Shown here: positions 3,237 to 51,657 of the stretch, one piece after another | Position numbering within the stretch: the first letter of the stretch is position 1 | How the letters are laid out: the number at the start of each line of letters is the position of its first letter | Source: Halobaculum magnesiiphilum | GTDB lineage: Archaea; Halobacteriota; Halobacteria; Halobacteriales; Haloferacaceae | Direction: 5' to 3' | Assembly: GCF_019823105.1 (NCBI RefSeq) | Contig: NZ_CP081958.1 | Coordinates: forward strand, 1,736,001 to 1,800,000 | Length of the DNA: 64,000 nt | Translations under genes and position numbers: made by a program | The notes under the pieces: model-generated | The model's input: only the letters and a program-made list of their open reading frames with translations | Databases searched by the model: none | What the model was told of the DNA's origin: nothing

Positions 3237-4850
3237 TCAAACGAACTTCCGGACCATCATGTCCAGCGTGTCCAGATCGAGGATCGGCGCGTGGGCCACG
3301 TCGGGGTCGATGTTGACGGACTTCTGGAAGTCGGTCTGGGCCTGCCAGCAGCCGGAGTTGACCGCGAGGACGTTGTGGTACTTGCCCCACCCGAGCTTGT
3401 GGACGTGGCCGGTGTGGAACACGTCCGGCACCTCGTCGATGACGAGGTAGTCGCGCTCCTCGGGTGCGACGCGGGTCTTCCCGCCGAACTGCGGGGCGAC
3501 GTGGCGTTTCTTGAGGAGCTGGTACATCGCCTTGTGCGGCTCGTCGTAGCTGGCTTTCTCCTCGGGCAACTCGGCGATCACCTCGTCGAGGGAGACGCCG
3601 TGATACATCAGGACCGAGACGCCCTCCACGTCGACCACCGCGGGGTTGCTCACGATCTGGGGGTCGTGCGCGCTCATGATCCCGCGAAGCTCCTCGTCGA
3701 ACCCCGGCTGCGGCTCGGCGAGGCGAACCGCGTCGTGGTTCCCGGGGATCATCACGATCTCCATGTCGCCGGGGACCTCCTTCAGGTGCTCCGAGAACGT
3801 CTCGTACTGGTCGTAGATGTCGACGATGTCGAGCTCCTCGTCCTGGTTCGGGTAGACGCCGACGCCCTCGACCATGTCGCCGGCGATGAGCAGGTACTCG
3901 ACGGTCTCGGCCTCCTCGGTGTGGAGCCAGTCGGCGAACCGGCCCCACGCGTCCGCGAGGAACTCCTGGGAGCCGACGTGCACGTCCGAGATGAGCGCCG
4001 CCTGCACGTGACGGTCGGCGGTGCTCGGCCGGTACGTCCGGGGAACGTCTGGGAAGTGGATCGCGTCGACGAAGACGATGCCCGCGTCGTCCGCGAGCGT
4101 TCCCGAGACCGCGATACACTCGTCCATGAGCAGTTCGTCCACCAGGTCCGCGATGTCGCGGTCCTTCATCACGAGACACGGGAACGTCCCGGTGGTGTCC
4201 TCCAACTCGACGAGCCAGTGGCCCGACGCGGTCGATCTGATGTCGTTGACGAGACCGATCAGCTCCACGTCGGCGCCGCCGCCCATCGCCTCGATGGAGT
4301 CGGCGGGGCGGTGATTGACGCGGCCCCGAAGCTGTCCCGAGAGCCGCTCGTAGCGGTCGCGGAACACGCCGACGAACTCGTCGTACGCGCCCGTCCCGGT
4401 CGACGCCCCGGTCATGTCGTTCGCGACGACGGGCGGGTTCGGGGAGCGAGCGCCGGCTCCGGTCCCCTTCGTTTCGTCTGGATCCGTCTCGGCGTCCTGG
4501 TGCGGTTCTCTGGCGGGGGTTCCACTCGAAACGGAGGGGTCTTCTCGTGCGGGGTCGTCCGTCGTCGCCGAGGAGGCAGTGTCGGTCGCAGTTGAGCCGG
4601 TGTCGGTCGACGGGGGCGACCGATTCGCGCCGTCGACCTGTTTGGGATCCGGAACCGGCTCGGCTTCGAGCGCCTCCCGGACGTGGTCCGTGGTGAGGAC
4701 GAGCGCGTCCTCGGGTGCGGCCTCGATGGCCGACTCGAGGGCGAGCTCGGGCGACGACGACTCGGCGATGAGGGTGACGGCCTCCCGCTCGGCGTTGTAC
4801 CCGCGGCGGGCGAGCGCCTGCACGACTCGGGAGGACGTCTCCAGCGGCAC
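3237..4850 (-). CDS. polB: DNA polymerase II (family D) small subunit, DP1
   Basis: DP1 is the exonuclease/accessory subunit of the archaeal replicative polymerase D and pairs with the large subunit DP2. The 537-residue protein has an N-terminal helical domain, a low-complexity acidic linker (about 75-150), an OB-fold region, and the calcineurin-like phosphoesterase core: SDVHVGS (288-294), GDM (324-326), GNHD (370-373), MYHG (about 415-418) and GHVH (481-484). All metal ligands appear intact, so 3'-5' exonuclease activity is expected. GTG 4850 is chosen because an AT-rich CTATCCTTTTG element sits about 27 nt upstream, fitting a leaderless transcript. It shares the orc1-sec11-polB order seen at the main haloarchaeal origin. 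An ORB-like box lies within its linker-coding DNA. Confidence 0.95.
   Translation of the reverse strand: MPLETSSRVVQALARRGYNAEREAVTLIAESSSPELALESAIEAAPEDALVLTTDHVREALEAEPVPDPKQVDGANRSPPSTDTGSTATDTASSATTDDPAREDPSVSSGTPAREPHQDAETDPDETKGTGAGARSPNPPVVANDMTGASTGTGAYDEFVGVFRDRYERLSGQLRGRVNHRPADSIEAMGGGADVELIGLVNDIRSTASGHWLVELEDTTGTFPCLVMKDRDIADLVDELLMDECIAVSGTLADDAGIVFVDAIHFPDVPRTYRPSTADRHVQAALISDVHVGSQEFLADAWGRFADWLHTEEAETVEYLLIAGDMVEGVGVYPNQDEELDIVDIYDQYETFSEHLKEVPGDMEIVMIPGNHDAVRLAEPQPGFDEELRGIMSAHDPQIVSNPAVVDVEGVSVLMYHGVSLDEVIAELPEEKASYDEPHKAMYQLLKKRHVAPQFGGKTRVAPEERDYLVIDEVPDVFHTGHVHKLGWGKYHNVLAVNSGCWQAQTDFQKSVNIDPDVAHAPILDLDTLDMMVRKFV
4516..4541 (+). promoter_or_regulatory. ORB-like box inside polB coding sequence
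   Basis: GTTCCACTCGAAACGGAGGG followed by GT matches the archaeal ORB layout closely: inverted-repeat core TTCCA...GAAAC, then the GGAGGGGT string. It falls in the DNA coding for the low-complexity linker of DP1, where the protein tolerates almost any residues. Orc1/Cdc6 binding is inferred from the motif alone. Confidence 0.6.
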
Positions 4851-6065: not shown

Positions 6066-8015
6066 TCAGTTGTCGAATCGGGCCTGAACGAACGGCTGGA
6101 CGTCCTCGATGTCGCCGAGGCGGGAGTCCGACAGCAGGACCGCCTCGGTCTCGTCGATGGGGACCGACAGGGAGATCTCCTTGGTCCGGCCGTAGCGACC
6201 CTTCGAGACGACGACGGCGTTGACGATCCCCAGCATGTCGAGTTCGGAGATGAGGTCGGTGACGCGACGCTGGGTGAGCACGTCGGCGTCGATCTCCTCA
6301 CAGAGCCGCTTGTAGATGTTGAACACCTCGCCGGTGTTGACATTGTGGACGCCGTTCTGCTCCAGCAGGATGATCGAAAAGAGGACGATCTTGCTTTGGG
6401 TCGGGAGCGTCCGAACGACCTCGACGACGCGGTCCAACTCGATCTTGTCCTGCGCCTGCCGGACGTGCGCCTCCTCGACGAGGTCGGCCTGCGAGCGCTC
6501 GGCGAGTTCGCCCGCGGTGCGCAGCAGGTCGAGCGCCCGCCGAGCGTCGCCGTGTTCCTGCGCGGCGAAGGCGGCACACAGCGGGATCACGTCCTCGGTG
6601 AGCGCGTCGCCCTTGAACGCGATGTCGGAACGGTGCTGGAGAATGTCCCGTAGCTGGTTCGCGTCGTACGGCGGGAAGACGATCTCCTCCTCGCCGAGGC
6701 TCGACTTGACGCGGGGGTCGAGGAAGTCGGTGAACTTCAGGTCGTTCGAGATCCCCATGATGGAGATCCGGGAGTTCTCCAGTTCGGAGTTCATCCGCGA
6801 GAGGTTGTACAGCGTGTCGTCGCCGGACTTCTCGACGAGTTTGTCGATCTCGTCGAGCATGATGACGACGACGCGCTCGTGATAGTCGACGGCGTCGAAG
6901 AACGTCGAGTAGACGCGGTCGGTCGGCCATCCGGTCATCGGCACCTCCTCCATCTCCTCGCGGTCGGACTCGAGGTCGGCGATGCGGTCGTCGACATCGG
7001 AGACCGAGGCGAACTCGGTCCCGTCGAGCGCGCTGTCGTCGTCGGTAGCCGCGGAGCGAAGGTCGCGAAGGTCGTCGAGCTGGTCGTCGATGACCGTCTC
7101 GTTCTTCTCGATGAACTTGTTCGCGAGCTGCGCGAGCACGCGGTACTGGGTGTCGGTCACCTCGCAGTTGATGTACTCGACCTCGCAGGGAACGTCGTAC
7201 TTCTGACTGGTCGATTCGAGTTCCTGTGAGACGAACTTCGCCGAGGCCGTCTTTCCCGTCCCCGTTTTCCCGTAGATGAGGATGTTCGACGGCGTCTCCC
7301 CGCGCAACGCGGACACGAGGATCGTCGCCATCTTGTTGATCTGGTCCTTCCGGTGAGGGAGCTCGTGGGGCGTGTAGGAGGGGCGAAGCACCTCCTTGTT
7401 CTCGAAGATCGGCTCGCCCGAGAGGAGGTCGTCGAACAGCCCGGTGCTGGCTTCGTCGTCCTCGTCCGACAGCACCTCGTCGACGTCGAGATCCACGTCC
7501 GTTCGCGACCGCGACCCGGACCCGAAGTTGAACGACGTTCCGTCCGCGCCGACATCCGCGTCGCCGTCGGTGTCCCGGCCGGTGTTGTAGTCGCCGTGGT
7601 CGGCGTCATCGCCGTCGTCGTGGTCGGCCGCGTCGCCGTCGGCCGCGTCGCGGGCGTCGTCGGTATGGTCGGTTTCGTCGCTACGGTCGTAGCCGGCGTC
7701 GTTGTCCCCGTTGTGGCCTCCCTTCCCGTTCTCGCCATCGTCCGCGACGGACGTTCCGGTCGGCGTGGAATCCGGTTCCACCCCGGATCCTCGTTCTGTC
7801 TCGCGGACAGATTCTGATTCGACTTCCGGTTCGGATTCGGATTCGGGTTCGGAACGAGGCTTCGGATCGGAGCCGGCGCTACCGCTCTCCGTGTCGGACG
7901 GCCGCCCGTCACTTCGGGTGGAGTCGTCGTTCTCGTCGGAGTGCGTCGTCGCATCCGACCGGTCGTCGGTACCGTCGTCGTTCGGGCTGTGTTCCGGCTC
8001 TTCGTCCCGTGTCAT
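6066..8015 (-). CDS. orc1: Orc1/Cdc6 replication initiator
   Basis: This AAA+ ATPase binds origin recognition boxes and loads MCM. From Met 8015 it has 649 residues. About 190 acidic Ser/Asp/Glu/Gly-rich residues come first, then LFDDLLSGEPIF and the AAA+ core: Walker A GKTGTGKT (249-256), Walker B VVIMLDEID, and sensor I in SIMGISNDLKF. Next are sensor II/lid motifs near HGDARRALDLLRTAG and a C-terminal winged helix (QRRVTDLISELDMLG). Related Orc1 proteins are usually about 400-560 residues, so the leader is long. Other in-frame starts are 8054 and 8141. The 8015 start is preferred because the acidic composition begins there and the 8026-8049 ORB then lies in the leader. A T6AAC stretch near 8166 would instead fit a leaderless start at 8141. 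Confidence 0.93.
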   Translation of the reverse strand: MTRDEEPEHSPNDDGTDDRSDATTHSDENDDSTRSDGRPSDTESGSAGSDPKPRSEPESESEPEVESESVRETERGSGVEPDSTPTGTSVADDGENGKGGHNGDNDAGYDRSDETDHTDDARDAADGDAADHDDGDDADHGDYNTGRDTDGDADVGADGTSFNFGSGSRSRTDVDLDVDEVLSDEDDEASTGLFDDLLSGEPIFENKEVLRPSYTPHELPHRKDQINKMATILVSALRGETPSNILIYGKTGTGKTASAKFVSQELESTSQKYDVPCEVEYINCEVTDTQYRVLAQLANKFIEKNETVIDDQLDDLRDLRSAATDDDSALDGTEFASVSDVDDRIADLESDREEMEEVPMTGWPTDRVYSTFFDAVDYHERVVVIMLDEIDKLVEKSGDDTLYNLSRMNSELENSRISIMGISNDLKFTDFLDPRVKSSLGEEEIVFPPYDANQLRDILQHRSDIAFKGDALTEDVIPLCAAFAAQEHGDARRALDLLRTAGELAERSQADLVEEAHVRQAQDKIELDRVVEVVRTLPTQSKIVLFSIILLEQNGVHNVNTGEVFNIYKRLCEEIDADVLTQRRVTDLISELDMLGIVNAVVVSKGRYGRTKEISLSVPIDETEAVLLSDSRLGDIEDVQPFVQARFDN

Positions 8016-8025
8016 CCGTTCGTTG

Positions 8026-8049
8026 AACCCCTTTGTTTCGACTGGAACA
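8026..8049 (-). promoter_or_regulatory. ORB at the orc1 5' end
   Basis: On the minus strand: TGTTCCAGTCGAAACAAAGG followed by GGTT. This is a near-consensus ORB (TTCCA...GAAAC...AAGGGGT). It lies 11 bp before the preferred orc1 start, or just inside the gene if translation begins at 8054. The position suggests the initiator represses or senses its own expression; that is inference. Confidence 0.7.
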
Positions 8050-8621
8050 TTCATCGGGCACCTGCCGGATCGGGGGCTCTCACCCGGTATTTCGGGGATA
8101 TTGAGCCCGGACAGGTGACCGACCGCGTCCAGATGATGCAACCGAAGAGGATGGACAGCCTGTTAAAAAACGTTACTGTTTGGTCGAAGCCCCGCCGAAC
8201 GTGTGAGATCGGAACTCGTCGTTCCTCGTTGTTCCTCGTCGTTCGACGGGAAGGGAGGGTCTCTCGGGCCGGAAGATATCACGGTGGGATCCCCAATTCG
8301 GGAACTGATTCGATCTCGGTCGCCCGACGATCGGAACGGGAATCGGTTGCTGAAGTGACGGGTCGTCGGTAATCAGGGTTGTAGCATTGAGTCTATCGTC
8401 GGATCCCAGTTCGGCCCGGCCGAACGACTGACACGGGCTCGGGCGACGAGGTGGTCTAGTGACCCATCGTGAGGAGTCACCCGTATCGTGGCCCATGTCA
8501 CCGAGAACCGCGGTCCGTATCGCCGGGCGACCGGATCCGTAACTGGATTCGACTAGAAACCTTCCCGCATGAGTCGAACGGGTAGCCGTTCCAGGACCCG
8601 GAGACGGTCCCCGTTCGACGG

Positions 8622-8650
8622 CCCCCCACCCCTTCGTTTCTGGTGGAACG
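8622..8650 (-). promoter_or_regulatory. Left ORB of the central inverted pair
   Basis: The minus strand reads CGTTCCACCAGAAACGAAGG, then GGTGGGGGG. It has a complete ORB core plus an extended G-string. The core faces the AT-rich segment and the G-string points outward toward orc1. Confidence 0.8.
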
Positions 8651-8808
8651 ACCTACCGGAGGGGTGGGGGAGGGTGTCGCTAGATGCCGGCATCTTTATT
8701 ACAAATCCCATCTAACAATATCCGCACGACTAGCAGATATATTTTGTTTGGGTCGGTATGGGTTCTAGAAAACTCGCCGCGGACATCCCTACCCACCTCG
8801 TCCGACGA
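8651..8808. other. Putative duplex unwinding element between the ORBs
   Basis: The segment between the two ORBs contains the most AT-rich run of the region (8694-8752, with CTTTATTACAAAT, CTAACAATATCC and AGATATATTTTGTTT). It also has a perfect 12-bp palindrome GATGCCGGCATC at 8683-8694 and a G-rich strand GGAGGGGTGGGGGAGGGTG at 8658-8676. In archaeal origins, ORBs flank the site of first melting, so this is the likely unwinding site. Confidence 0.7.
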
Positions 8809-8838
8809 GTTCCACACGAAATGGAGGGGTGGGGGTGG
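8809..8838 (+). promoter_or_regulatory. Right ORB of the central inverted pair
   Basis: GTTCCACACGAAATGGAGGG, then GTGGGGGTGG, matches the ORB layout with an extended G-string. It is inverted relative to the box at 8622-8650 and points its G-string toward oapA. Confidence 0.8.
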
Positions 8839-30572: not shown

Positions 30573-30646
30573 AGTCCATTGGGGTAGCTGGCCAATCCTG
30601 TTGCCTTCTGGGGGCAACGACCCTGGTTCGAATCCAGGATGGACTA
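30573..30646 (+). tRNA. tRNA-Gln (CTG)
   Basis: The acceptor stem AGTCCAT pairs with ATGGACT, with discriminator A. The anticodon stem TTGCC/GGCAA encloses loop TTCTGGG, so the anticodon is CTG. The T-arm is CCTGG-TTCGAAT-CCAGG. The D-arm (GGGGTAGCTGGCCAATCC) matches the haloarchaeal tRNA-Gln pattern. CCA is not encoded. Confidence 0.92.
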
Positions 30647-30696
30647 CTTCTCTTCACACGTTTCCCGTAGAACGAACAGGAACCGGTGTGTGGCGA

Positions 30697-30720
30697 TTTC
30701 CACACGAAACAGAGGGGTCT
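30697..30720 (+). promoter_or_regulatory. Isolated ORB-like box beside tRNA-Gln
   Basis: TTTCCACACGAAACAGAGGG followed by GTCT is one of the best ORB matches in the window, equal in quality to those at the origin. It lies 51 bp after tRNA-Gln and about 22 kb from the central origin pair. Its left half overlaps a small inverted repeat (GTGTGG at 30688, CCACAC at 30700). Confidence 0.55.
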
Positions 30721-30823: not shown

Positions 30824-32128
30824 ATGGTCACGTTCAGTACGCTTTCTCTTCCGGCGGTCGGCGGGGGGATCATCCTCGTGTTGCTCGCGTGTTCGGCGTT
30901 CTTCTCCAGCAGCGAGATCGCGATATTCAGCGTGGACCGCCACCGGGTTGGCCCGCTGGCGGAGACCAGCGGGCGTGCGGGGACCATCCTGGAGGCGTTG
31001 CGCTCGGACCCTCACCGGCTGTTGGTGACGATCCTCGTCGGCAACAACGTCGTCAACATCGCGATGTCGTCGATCGCGACGGCGATCCTGGTCGACGCGC
31101 TCCCGGCGGGGATCGCCGTGACGGTCGCGACGGTCGTGTTGACGGTGGTGGTGCTCGTGTTCGGCGAGATCGTCCCCAAGTCCTACGGCGTCGCCAACGC
31201 CGAGTCGTGGGCGCTCCGGACGGCGCCGACGCTCCGGCGGTTCCAGCGCGCCGCGGGGCCGGTCGTGACCGCCTTCGACGCCGTGACACGCCGGTTGAGC
31301 GCGGCCATCGGCGGGGAGTCGGCGATCGAGGCGCCGTACGTCACCCGGGACGAACTGGCGGCTTTGGCGCGGACGGCCGAACGCGGCGGCGGGATCGACG
31401 CCGGCGAGCGCGAGATGGTGGAGTCGGTGCTACGCCTCCACGAGATCACCGCGGAGGACGTGATGGTCCCCCGTGAGAACGTCGTCGCCGTCGACGCGAG
31501 CACGTCGATCCGCGACACGGCGACGCTGGCGGCCGACCAGCGGGTGACCCGGCTTCCGGTGTTCGACGGCACGCTGGACCGCGTCCGGGGGATCGTCGAC
31601 CTCCGCGACCTGGAGCGGACGCTCGCGCTCGACGAGTCGGTGTCCGTGGAGCGGCTCGCGACGCCGACGCTGTCGGTCTCGACCGGCGAGCCGATCGACA
31701 CGCTGTTGACCCGGATGCAGGACGAGCGCGTCCGGATGGCGATGGTGGTCGCCGACGACGGCGCGGTCGTGGGGCTCGTGACGGTGCAGGACGTGTTGGA
31801 GGAGGTGGTCGGCGACCTGTTCGACGTGGGCAGCGAGGCGAGCGTCCGCGCGGTCGCCGACGGCGTGATGGTCCGCGGCGACGTGTTCCTCGACCGCCTC
31901 GACGCGGTCTTCGGCACCGCGCTCGCGGCCGACGCCCCGGCGGACGCCGGAACGCTCGCCGGCTACGTGTACCACCGGCTCGGACGCGTCCCTCGCTCCG
32001 GCGAACGGGTGGAACTGGACGGGATGGCCGTGACCGTCGAGCAGATCGACGGCGAGCGCATCCGTCGGATGTTCGTCGAGCCCGGGCGCCCGTCCGACGC
32101 CGCGAGCGCGGACGATCCGGCCCGCTGA
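30824..32128 (+). CDS. CNNM/CorC-type membrane protein with CBS pair (DUF21)
   Basis: The 434-residue protein has a DUF21 membrane domain with three to four helices (the first through VGGGIILVLLACSAFFSSSE). It contains the FSSSEIA and FGEIVPKSYG motifs of the CNNM/HlyC-CorC family. A CBS pair (about 215-345, beginning VMVPRENVVAVDAS) and a C-terminal CorC_HlyC domain (GDVFLDRLDAVFG) follow. Relatives transport or sense Mg2+/Co2+, using Na+ exchange in some cases. ATG 30824 is preceded by GATTTACGC about 30 nt upstream. Confidence 0.9.
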   Translation: MVTFSTLSLPAVGGGIILVLLACSAFFSSSEIAIFSVDRHRVGPLAETSGRAGTILEALRSDPHRLLVTILVGNNVVNIAMSSIATAILVDALPAGIAVTVATVVLTVVVLVFGEIVPKSYGVANAESWALRTAPTLRRFQRAAGPVVTAFDAVTRRLSAAIGGESAIEAPYVTRDELAALARTAERGGGIDAGEREMVESVLRLHEITAEDVMVPRENVVAVDASTSIRDTATLAADQRVTRLPVFDGTLDRVRGIVDLRDLERTLALDESVSVERLATPTLSVSTGEPIDTLLTRMQDERVRMAMVVADDGAVVGLVTVQDVLEEVVGDLFDVGSEASVRAVADGVMVRGDVFLDRLDAVFGTALAADAPADAGTLAGYVYHRLGRVPRSGERVELDGMAVTVEQIDGERIRRMFVEPGRPSDAASADDPAR

Positions 32129-46409: not shown

Positions 46410-47880
<1,471 letters not shown>

Positions 47881-47908
47881 ACAGATCGAGACCAGGGCGA
47901 CGCCCTGG

Positions 47909-47970
47909 CTCACCTTTCGGTCCGTTCCCGACGCCGATCGGGCACCTTCGAACTATCGAGGCTCGCTCAC
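47909..47970 (+). repeat. Right arm of the 16S rRNA processing stem
   Basis: CGACGCCGATCGGGCACCTT and CGAACTATCGAGGCTCGCTC pair with 46294-46358 upstream of 16S. The complementarity defines the pre-16S excision stem. Confidence 0.85.
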
Positions 47971-47986
47971 GCCCCCTGACGGGGGT

Positions 47987-48058
47987 GGGCCCATAGCTCA
48001 GTGGTAGAGTGCCTCCTTTGCAAGGAGGATGCCCTGGGTTCGAATCCCAGTGGGTCCA
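47987..48058 (+). tRNA. tRNA-Ala (TGC) in the 16S-23S spacer
   Basis: The acceptor stem GGGCCCA pairs with TGGGTCC (one G-U), with discriminator A. The D-arm is GCTCAGTGGTAGAGT. Anticodon stem CTCCT/AGGAG encloses TTTGCAA, giving TGC. The T-arm is CTGGG-TTCGAAT-CCCAG. Its position between 16S and 23S is the standard euryarchaeal arrangement. Confidence 0.96.
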
Positions 48059-48213
48059 TGTATTCGGGGTCCATCGTGAACCGTGCGCCTTATATGGCGG
48101 ACGGCGATACGATGAATCCCGACGCAAGACCGATGCACCATTCCGCGAGAGCGGGAATGGGAAGGGTCGATGTACGCTCGCATGCCACCCATGCGACGTG
48201 CGATGACGACCGT

Positions 48214-48270
48214 ATGTACGTGCAATCCAGACGTCCACTGGACCCGTTCACCGGGTCACAGTGTACCATC
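48214..48270 (+). repeat. Left arm of the 23S rRNA processing stem
   Basis: ATGTACGTGCAATCCAG, GGACCCGTTCAC and CACAGTG are complementary in order to 51191-51246 after 23S. They form the pre-23S bulge-helix-bulge stem. Confidence 0.85.
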
Positions 48271-48276
48271 AGTCAA

Positions 48277-51190
<2,914 letters not shown>

Positions 51191-51246
51191 ATGCACTGGG
51201 ACCCATCGTGAACGGGTCCAGGCGTTACCTGGATTGCACGTACATA
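51191..51246 (+). repeat. Right arm of the 23S rRNA processing stem
   Basis: GCACTGGGACCCATCGTGAA, CGGGTCCAGG and CTGGATTGCACGTACAT pair with 48214-48270. Cleavage here releases pre-23S from 5S. Confidence 0.85.
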
Positions 51247-51300
51247 CTGGTCGACAGACCGACGCAGGCATTACATCGGATCGTTCCCGATGGTCGGCCT

Positions 51301-51422
51301 TCGGGCGGCCACAGCGGCGGGGCACCACCCGTACCCATCCCGAACACGGAAGTTAAGCCCGCCAGCGTTCCGGCAAGTCCTGGAGTGCGAGAGCCTCTGG
51401 AAACACCGGTTCGCCGCCCACC
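51301..51422 (+). rRNA. rrf: 5S ribosomal RNA
   Basis: The segment contains GGCGGCCACAGCGGCGGGG, the universally conserved CCCATCCCGAACACGGAAG, TTAAGCCCGCCAGCGTTCC and the closing GGTTCGCCGCCCACC. The terminal stem GGGCGGC/GCCGCCC pairs. Length is about 122 nt, as in other haloarchaea; ends are approximate. Confidence 0.95.
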
Positions 51423-51439
51423 ACTCATACGCAACACAC

Positions 51440-51472
51440 AACGGCTCACCAGCACCGCGCTGGTGGGCCGTT
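51440..51472 (+). terminator. Strong stem-loop after 5S rRNA
   Basis: AACGGCTCACCAGC (51440-51453) pairs with GCTGGTGGGCCGTT (51459-51472) around ACCGC, with a G-T and otherwise nearly perfect match. CTGCATTT follows. It could terminate or process the rRNA transcript before tRNA-Cys. Confidence 0.55.
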
Positions 51473-51581
51473 CTGCATTTATAGACACACGCACGTACAC
51501 GCCGCCAGCGACGGCTTCGTCGATCGGCTCGAACGGCGGATCCGCTAGGCTTAAACGCCTTACACGCCTCCGTTCAGGTGC

Positions 51582-51657
51582 GCCAAGGTGGCAGAGTCCG
51601 GCCATACGCATCTCCCTGCAGAGGAGAACCACGCCGGTTCAAATCCGGCCCTTGGCT
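51582..51657 (+). tRNA. tRNA-Cys (GCA)
   Basis: The acceptor stem GCCAAGG pairs with CCTTGGC, with discriminator T. Anticodon stem TCTCC/GGAGA encloses CTGCAGA, giving GCA. The T-arm is GCCGG-TTCAAAT-CCGGC. Its own TATA-like box CTTAAACG lies at about 51550. It closes the rRNA operon, as in other haloarchaea. Confidence 0.95.

Follow-up and report, generated by a model that had tools for sequence, protein, structure and literature searches.

A conserved oriC1-type origin recognition box on the 3′ side of tRNA-Gln in Halobaculum magnesiiphilum suggests an accessory initiator-binding site

Introduction

What is the role of an origin recognition box (ORB) of full quality that lies outside the replication origin, next to a tRNA gene? 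The question is raised by a 64 kb stretch of DNA from Halobaculum magnesiiphilum, referred to here as the window, in which a box of the oriC1 type stands downstream of a tRNA-Gln(CTG) gene. A preliminary description of this DNA had called the box isolated and as good as those of the origin, and had offered three readings of it: a dormant origin, a titration site for Orc1 or the remnant of an integrated replicon. Published origin surveys, in the accessible portions of two of them, examined intergenic regions beside orc genes (PMC3528665, PMC4595724). A search of the open-licence literature of PubMed Central, a collection outside which most subscription papers lie, yielded no description of an ORB at tRNA-Gln and none of dispersed boxes of the oriC1 type.

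Results

Sequence, quality and rarity of the box

Table 1. Features of the window that bear on the tRNA-Gln element
Feature	Position	Strand	Basis
Divergent ORB pair, 36 bp apart, inside the PolD small-subunit (DP1) gene; second extra-origin element	4464–4539		Pattern, Pfam
cdc6A/orc1, ORF of 691 aa, presumed binder of the boxes	6066–8141	−	Pfam Cdc6_C (5e-32), Cdc6_lid, AAA
oriC1: ORBs at 8028–8047 (−), 8629–8648 (−) and 8810–8830 (+), with AT-rich stretch	8028–8830		Pattern, matrix, GC
tRNA-Gln(CTG), constant neighbour of the element	30573–30647	+	ARAGORN
Inverted ORB core lacking a G-string, TTCTACGGGAAAC, 25 bp from the ORB	30660–30672	−	Matrix scan, spacer comparison
Full oriC1-type ORB with G-string, TTCCACACGAAACAGAGGGGT	30698–30718	+	Pattern, weight matrix, conservation profile
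CNNM/CBS transporter-like gene, variable neighbour outside the element	30824–32128	+	Pfam

The tRNA-Gln ORB (TTTCCACACGAAACAGAGGGGT at positions 30697–30718 of the forward strand) follows the tRNA on its 3′ side after a gap of 50 bp and is separated from oriC1 by about 22 kb, as the preliminary description had placed it. Its weight-matrix score of 29.3 bits falls inside the range of the oriC1 boxes (33.5 bits for the box at 8028, 29.9 for that at 8629 and 24.6 for that at 8810) and bears out the claim of equal quality, with the proviso that the matrix was trained on ORBs from 35 genomes including this site and is to that extent slightly circular. A search of all 3,732,450 bases of the genome with the pattern TTCCANNNGAAANNNAGGGGT gave six exact matches and 12 with at most two mismatches; the reversed pattern, used as the control, gave none. 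Six exact ORBs in 3.73 Mb against none for the reversed pattern rule out a chance match, and the many equal matches across the genome that had been named as a ground for doubt did not appear. Five of the six exact matches fall in the window, and every one is on the main contig, no more than about 195 kb from oriC1.

The description of the box as isolated needs correction. A degenerate inverted core accompanies it on its upstream side, and further ORBs stand outside the origin at 4464 (minus strand) and 4520 (plus strand) and at about −43 kb and about +193 kb. The ORB and the inverted core, with the 25 bp between them (60% GC), form an element that spans approximately 58 bp. Its architecture is fixed: at 66 of 83 distinct loci the best inverted core is separated from the ORB by 25–26 bp, compared with about 5% for shuffled spacers, and every one of the 51 inverted cores with a score of 0 bits or more keeps this distance. 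The tRNA-Gln loci of Haloferax have no inverted core. There (e.g. at L114 and L169) GTTTCAGAAACCAAAGGGGT or a similar sequence, recognized by eye, instead forms a degenerate direct second box immediately after the ORB.

Conservation and distribution

The tRNA-Gln/ORB arrangement occurs in all 11 genomes of the genus Halobaculum, the regions having been read in ten (G000–G009) and the eleventh (G010) having been added by the T-arm/ORB pattern. In the ten, the ORB starts about 49–62 bp past tRNA-Gln(CTG), in the same orientation as the tRNA, and at a distance of some 15–41 kb from oriC1. A strict pattern, consisting of any tRNA T-arm TTCGAATCC, 45–75 bases and then TCCANNNGAAACNNNGGGG, matched 102 of 292 genomes of the class and 29 of 76 genera, with none in the control. 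Counted by hand, the matches amount to 59/75 genomes in one family (f7), 42/105 in the family of the window (f1) and 1/112 in all others. One genome (G087) has two strict-pattern matches, one of which, by its sequence, is not at a tRNA. A scan of named genomes found at least 80 loci, among them those of H. gomorrense, H. saliterrae and H. litoreum within Halobaculum; among the matches listed, 79 are haloarchaeal and one is bacterial.

The tRNA is tRNA-Gln(CTG) by ARAGORN at 85 of the 90 loci read. The other five are four Haloferax loci at which no tRNA was called in the cut piece and the bacterial match, for which the tRNA call was negative. The T-arm pattern admits any tRNA, yet it revealed such a box at none besides tRNA-Gln. 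Haloferax carries the box in 15/15 genomes (G134 among them). In dozens of genera tRNA-Gln is followed by the composite element at near-constant spacing, and the flanks differ.

To the other side, a readable tRNA-Gln(CTG) locus was present in 26 of 27 genomes picked for missing the strict pattern. At two of these loci the box contains GAAAT and stands at +44/+45. Three more have an ORB-like box further out, at +103, at +177 and, in inverted orientation, at +207. The remaining 21 have no ORB within 400 bp, which rules out universal conservation. The element is thus a typical feature of two families, and many others lack it.

At positions left free by the pattern, the 83 distinct loci retain T at −1 (99%), A at +14 (93%), A at +15 (90%) and T at +20 (96%), and past +21 the sequence is near random. 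Since the downstream sequence and the downstream genes differ, it is the box itself that is under selection. Its conservation across genera means that the site is not a local accident.

Neighbouring genes

The gene downstream of the box varies. The CNNM gene adjoins it in some Halobaculum genomes only; CGI-121 takes this place in Haloferax, Halorubrum and Halohasta, and a rhodanese-domain lipoprotein or an oxidoreductase does so in Natrialbaceae (of the latter labels, those of one CGI-121 protein and of one rhodanese protein come from Pfam and the others were assigned by eye). The next gene is convergent toward the box in six of 12 loci examined, so the box is not generally a promoter element, and control of the CNNM promoter is ruled out as a general role. 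Elsewhere in the window, a complete rRNA operon (46410–51657; 16S, tRNA-Ala, 23S, 5S and tRNA-Cys) has a GC content below that of the rest.

Other ORBs outside the origin

Boxes of the oriC1 type also occur at other places outside the origin. Thirty-five genomes selected because they have the tRNA-Gln box gave 200 placed ORBs when that box was excluded. Measured from the origin centre, 106 of these lie within 2.5 kb, 35 at 2.5–10 kb, 25 at 10–50 kb, 12 at 50–100 kb, 18 at 100–250 kb and four beyond 250 kb, so that 94 are more than 2.5 kb out. Some of the distant matches may be coding coincidences, and these bins include the phosphatidylserine decarboxylase site described below and similar ones. 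The same bins hold 47, 18, 11, 6, 5 and 6 ORBs in a set of 17 genomes that lack the strict tRNA-Gln box, where 46 of the 93 ORBs of the origin contig are outside the origin and the density is 5.6 per Mb at 10–100 kb compared with 0.16 beyond 250 kb. Extra-origin ORBs are thus concentrated within about 250 kb of oriC1.

The tRNA-Gln box itself lies 5.5–125 kb from oriC, with a median of 26.5 kb (34 genomes). It is directed away from oriC in 26 of the 34; the exceptions are all six genomes of one genus (g13, Halorubrum by matching spacers), G145 and G110. Other boxes at 10–50 kb are directed toward oriC in 20 of 25 cases, and a constant polarity away from oriC, as suggested by Halobaculum, is ruled out. 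In 11 of the 17 genomes without the strict box the tRNA-Gln gene is no more than 50 kb away from oriC, and therefore its synteny with oriC is independent of the box. The gene is more than 200 kb away in four genomes, all lacking the box and belonging to a set selected for missing it.

The ORB pair in the DP1 gene, with its spacing of 36 bp, was found in ten of 12 loci tested in addition to the window, and in one genome (G217, L214:2951) it has remained with the gene at a distance of about 156 kb from oriC. Among the divergent pairs less than 120 bp apart in the list from the 35 genomes, the gap is 36 bp in nine genomes and 33 bp in one. The pair sits in a low-complexity linker of the coding sequence.

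Several single sites were noted in addition. An ORB about 190 kb from oriC1 (G000:C1:1937957, L051:7957) lies on the 5′ side of a D-3-phosphoglycerate dehydrogenase gene, by a HAD phosphatase gene, and two other genomes (G007 and G009) have ORBs at a similar distance of about 190 kb (L079, L086). Another, about −43 kb from oriC1 (G000:C1:1701417, L048:11417), is located between two divergent ORFs that have no Pfam match. About 8 kb further, a weaker match (TCCATGCGAAACGTAGGGG; G000:C1:1693270, L048:3270) falls inside a phosphatidylserine decarboxylase-like gene. The last two sites are 7.8–8.8 kb apart in eight Halobaculum genomes and are on the opposite side of oriC1 in G004 and G009. The weaker match recurs in relatives, but this may reflect coding conservation and it was not counted as evidence.

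Discussion

These results suggest neither an accident nor a second origin but an accessory control site that many haloarchaea share. The tentatively preferred reading, at close to even chances, is that of a conserved accessory Orc1/Cdc6A-binding element near oriC1 that may sequester the initiator in the manner of datA or of Haloarcula oriC2D. Given that oriC1 is initiated by Cdc6A and that the boxes are of the oriC1 family, Cdc6A would be expected to bind the tRNA-Gln element, probably pairwise with both boxes occupied. The site itself probably does not initiate, having neither an unwinding element nor a second G-string. Together with the other extra-origin ORBs it could hold initiator near oriC1, by analogy with oriC2D, and as such sites would double soon after the fork leaves the origin, re-initiation would be damped, as has been proposed for datA and oriC2D. 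In keeping with this reading, the site carries a high-quality initiator box outside the origin, rare in the genome and scoring within the range of the oriC1 boxes (29.3 against 24.6–33.5 bits).

In bacteria, datA of E. coli and dispersed clusters of DnaA boxes likewise bind the initiator at a distance from oriC and restrain initiation. The proteins (DnaA and Orc1/Cdc6) are nevertheless unrelated, as are the boxes, and the gene context is a different one. In Haloarcula hispanica, oriC2D comprises 11 ORBs within 722 bp downstream of cdc6E and negatively controls oriC2, likely via titration of Cdc6E, according to the accessible portions of PMC3936714; datA is named as a parallel to this type of control there and in the accessible portions of PMC4010727. 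Both oriC2D and the tRNA-Gln element place initiator boxes off the origin in the same class of organisms, and titration of the cognate Cdc6 is proposed for oriC2D in what is accessible of PMC3936714. The two differ in that the 11 ORBs are directly beside cdc6E and belong to oriC2, whereas here a full box and a core are found by tRNA-Gln, 5.5–125 kb from oriC1, and are of the oriC1 box family.

Of the three readings offered at the outset, titration of Orc1 fits best, with oriC2D as its precedent, although it is an argument by analogy. Against it stands the weak capacity of one or two boxes per site, one full box and one core in the present case, compared with the 11 ORBs of oriC2D; the dispersed set is about equal in number to the origin boxes. 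The element is also absent or displaced in many haloarchaea (one match in 112 genomes of other families), and titration alone leaves unexplained both the tie to tRNA-Gln and the 25 bp geometry. Haloarchaea are, moreover, polyploid, which weakens a strict once-per-cycle model.

A second explanation is that dispersed Orc1 sites organize or tether the origin region, through looping to oriC1 or in a centromere-like manner as bacterial parS does, with the inverted pair setting the geometry of a dimer. The distribution of sites on both sides of oriC at 10–250 kb would agree with this, as would the distance of the tRNA-Gln box from oriC (median 26.5 kb) and the fixed spacings of 25 and 36 bp, which differ by 11 bp, about one helical turn. 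The contacts involved are only predicted, however, and polarity is not constant, the tRNA-Gln box pointing mostly away from oriC and the other boxes at 10–50 kb mostly toward it; this explanation is considered unlikely. A broader proposal, which we also place on the unlikely side, is that an origin-centred network of fixed-geometry Orc1 sites, at the 3′ flank of tRNA-Gln, in the DP1 gene and at other loci, may organize or count the origin region in a centromere-like or copy-counting way, with the 25 and 36 bp spacings set by helical phase.

The role could instead be local, with Orc1 forming a boundary 3′ of tRNA-Gln that acts in transcription end, gene-end protection or fork pausing, and with nearness to oriC1 being inherited synteny. 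The box does stay with tRNA-Gln while the downstream genes change, and 11 of the 17 genomes lacking the strict box keep tRNA-Gln within 50 kb of oriC. Such a role is distinctly unlikely given that other tRNAs have no such box under a pattern that admits any T-arm TTCGAATCC, that tRNA-Gln lacks the box in many families, and that extra-origin ORBs are found within the DP1 coding sequence and in the gaps between protein genes as well.

A dormant or weak replication origin would be consistent with the inverted boxes, one of them of full quality. Haloarchaeal oriC1 lies next to cdc6A and has inverted ORBs with G-strings on either side of an AT-rich element; the tRNA-Gln ORB shares its box family and presumably its binder. 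Three defining features were looked for at the tRNA-Gln site and none was found; hence it is not classed as a replication origin. There is no AT-rich unwinding element near the box, where the lowest GC content over 60 bp is 0.48, compared with 0.33 in the 60 bp from 8690 at oriC1, and only 25 bp of 60% GC separate the boxes, whereas the gap at oriC1 is roughly 160–335 bp in the genomes examined. Only one G-string is present, that of the full ORB. No orc1/cdc6 gene adjoins the site: of six Cdc6_C matches in the genome, only cdc6A at oriC1, about 22 kb off, is in the window. Mutation of either G-string abolished H. hispanica oriC1m, and the dormant oriC4 of Haloferax mediterranei required its own adjacent cdc6H, as stated in the accessible portions of PMC3936714 and PMC4595724, respectively. 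An origin at this site is thus very improbable.

The remnant of a replicon integrated at tRNA-Gln is barely credible: tRNA 3′ ends are usual integration sites, but the same element recurs in dozens of genera with near-constant spacing and different flanks, the 22-base tRNA 3′ end has no second copy in the window at up to three mismatches, no orc paralogue stands beside the box, and the box is of the oriC1/Cdc6A type, whose exact matches are all on the main contig and at most about 195 kb away from oriC1. With neither a repeated tRNA end in the window nor an adjacent orc paralogue nor an AT-rich element found, the dormant-origin and integrated-replicon readings of the preliminary description are disfavoured.

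Conclusions

The tRNA-Gln site is classed with the accessory initiator-binding sites and not with the replication origins. How firing is limited in archaea that use eukaryote-like initiators is a question for which the tested haloarchaeal case found, in the accessible portions of the literature, is oriC2D. Nearly half of the oriC1-type boxes are located outside the origin, both in the genomes carrying the tRNA-Gln box (94/200 with that box excluded) and in those without the strict box (46/93). The element is a conserved and deletable site of about 58 bp that is present in 15/15 genomes of Haloferax, a genus with laboratory genetics, and titration of Orc1, or an organization of the origin region based on Orc1, thereby becomes directly testable.
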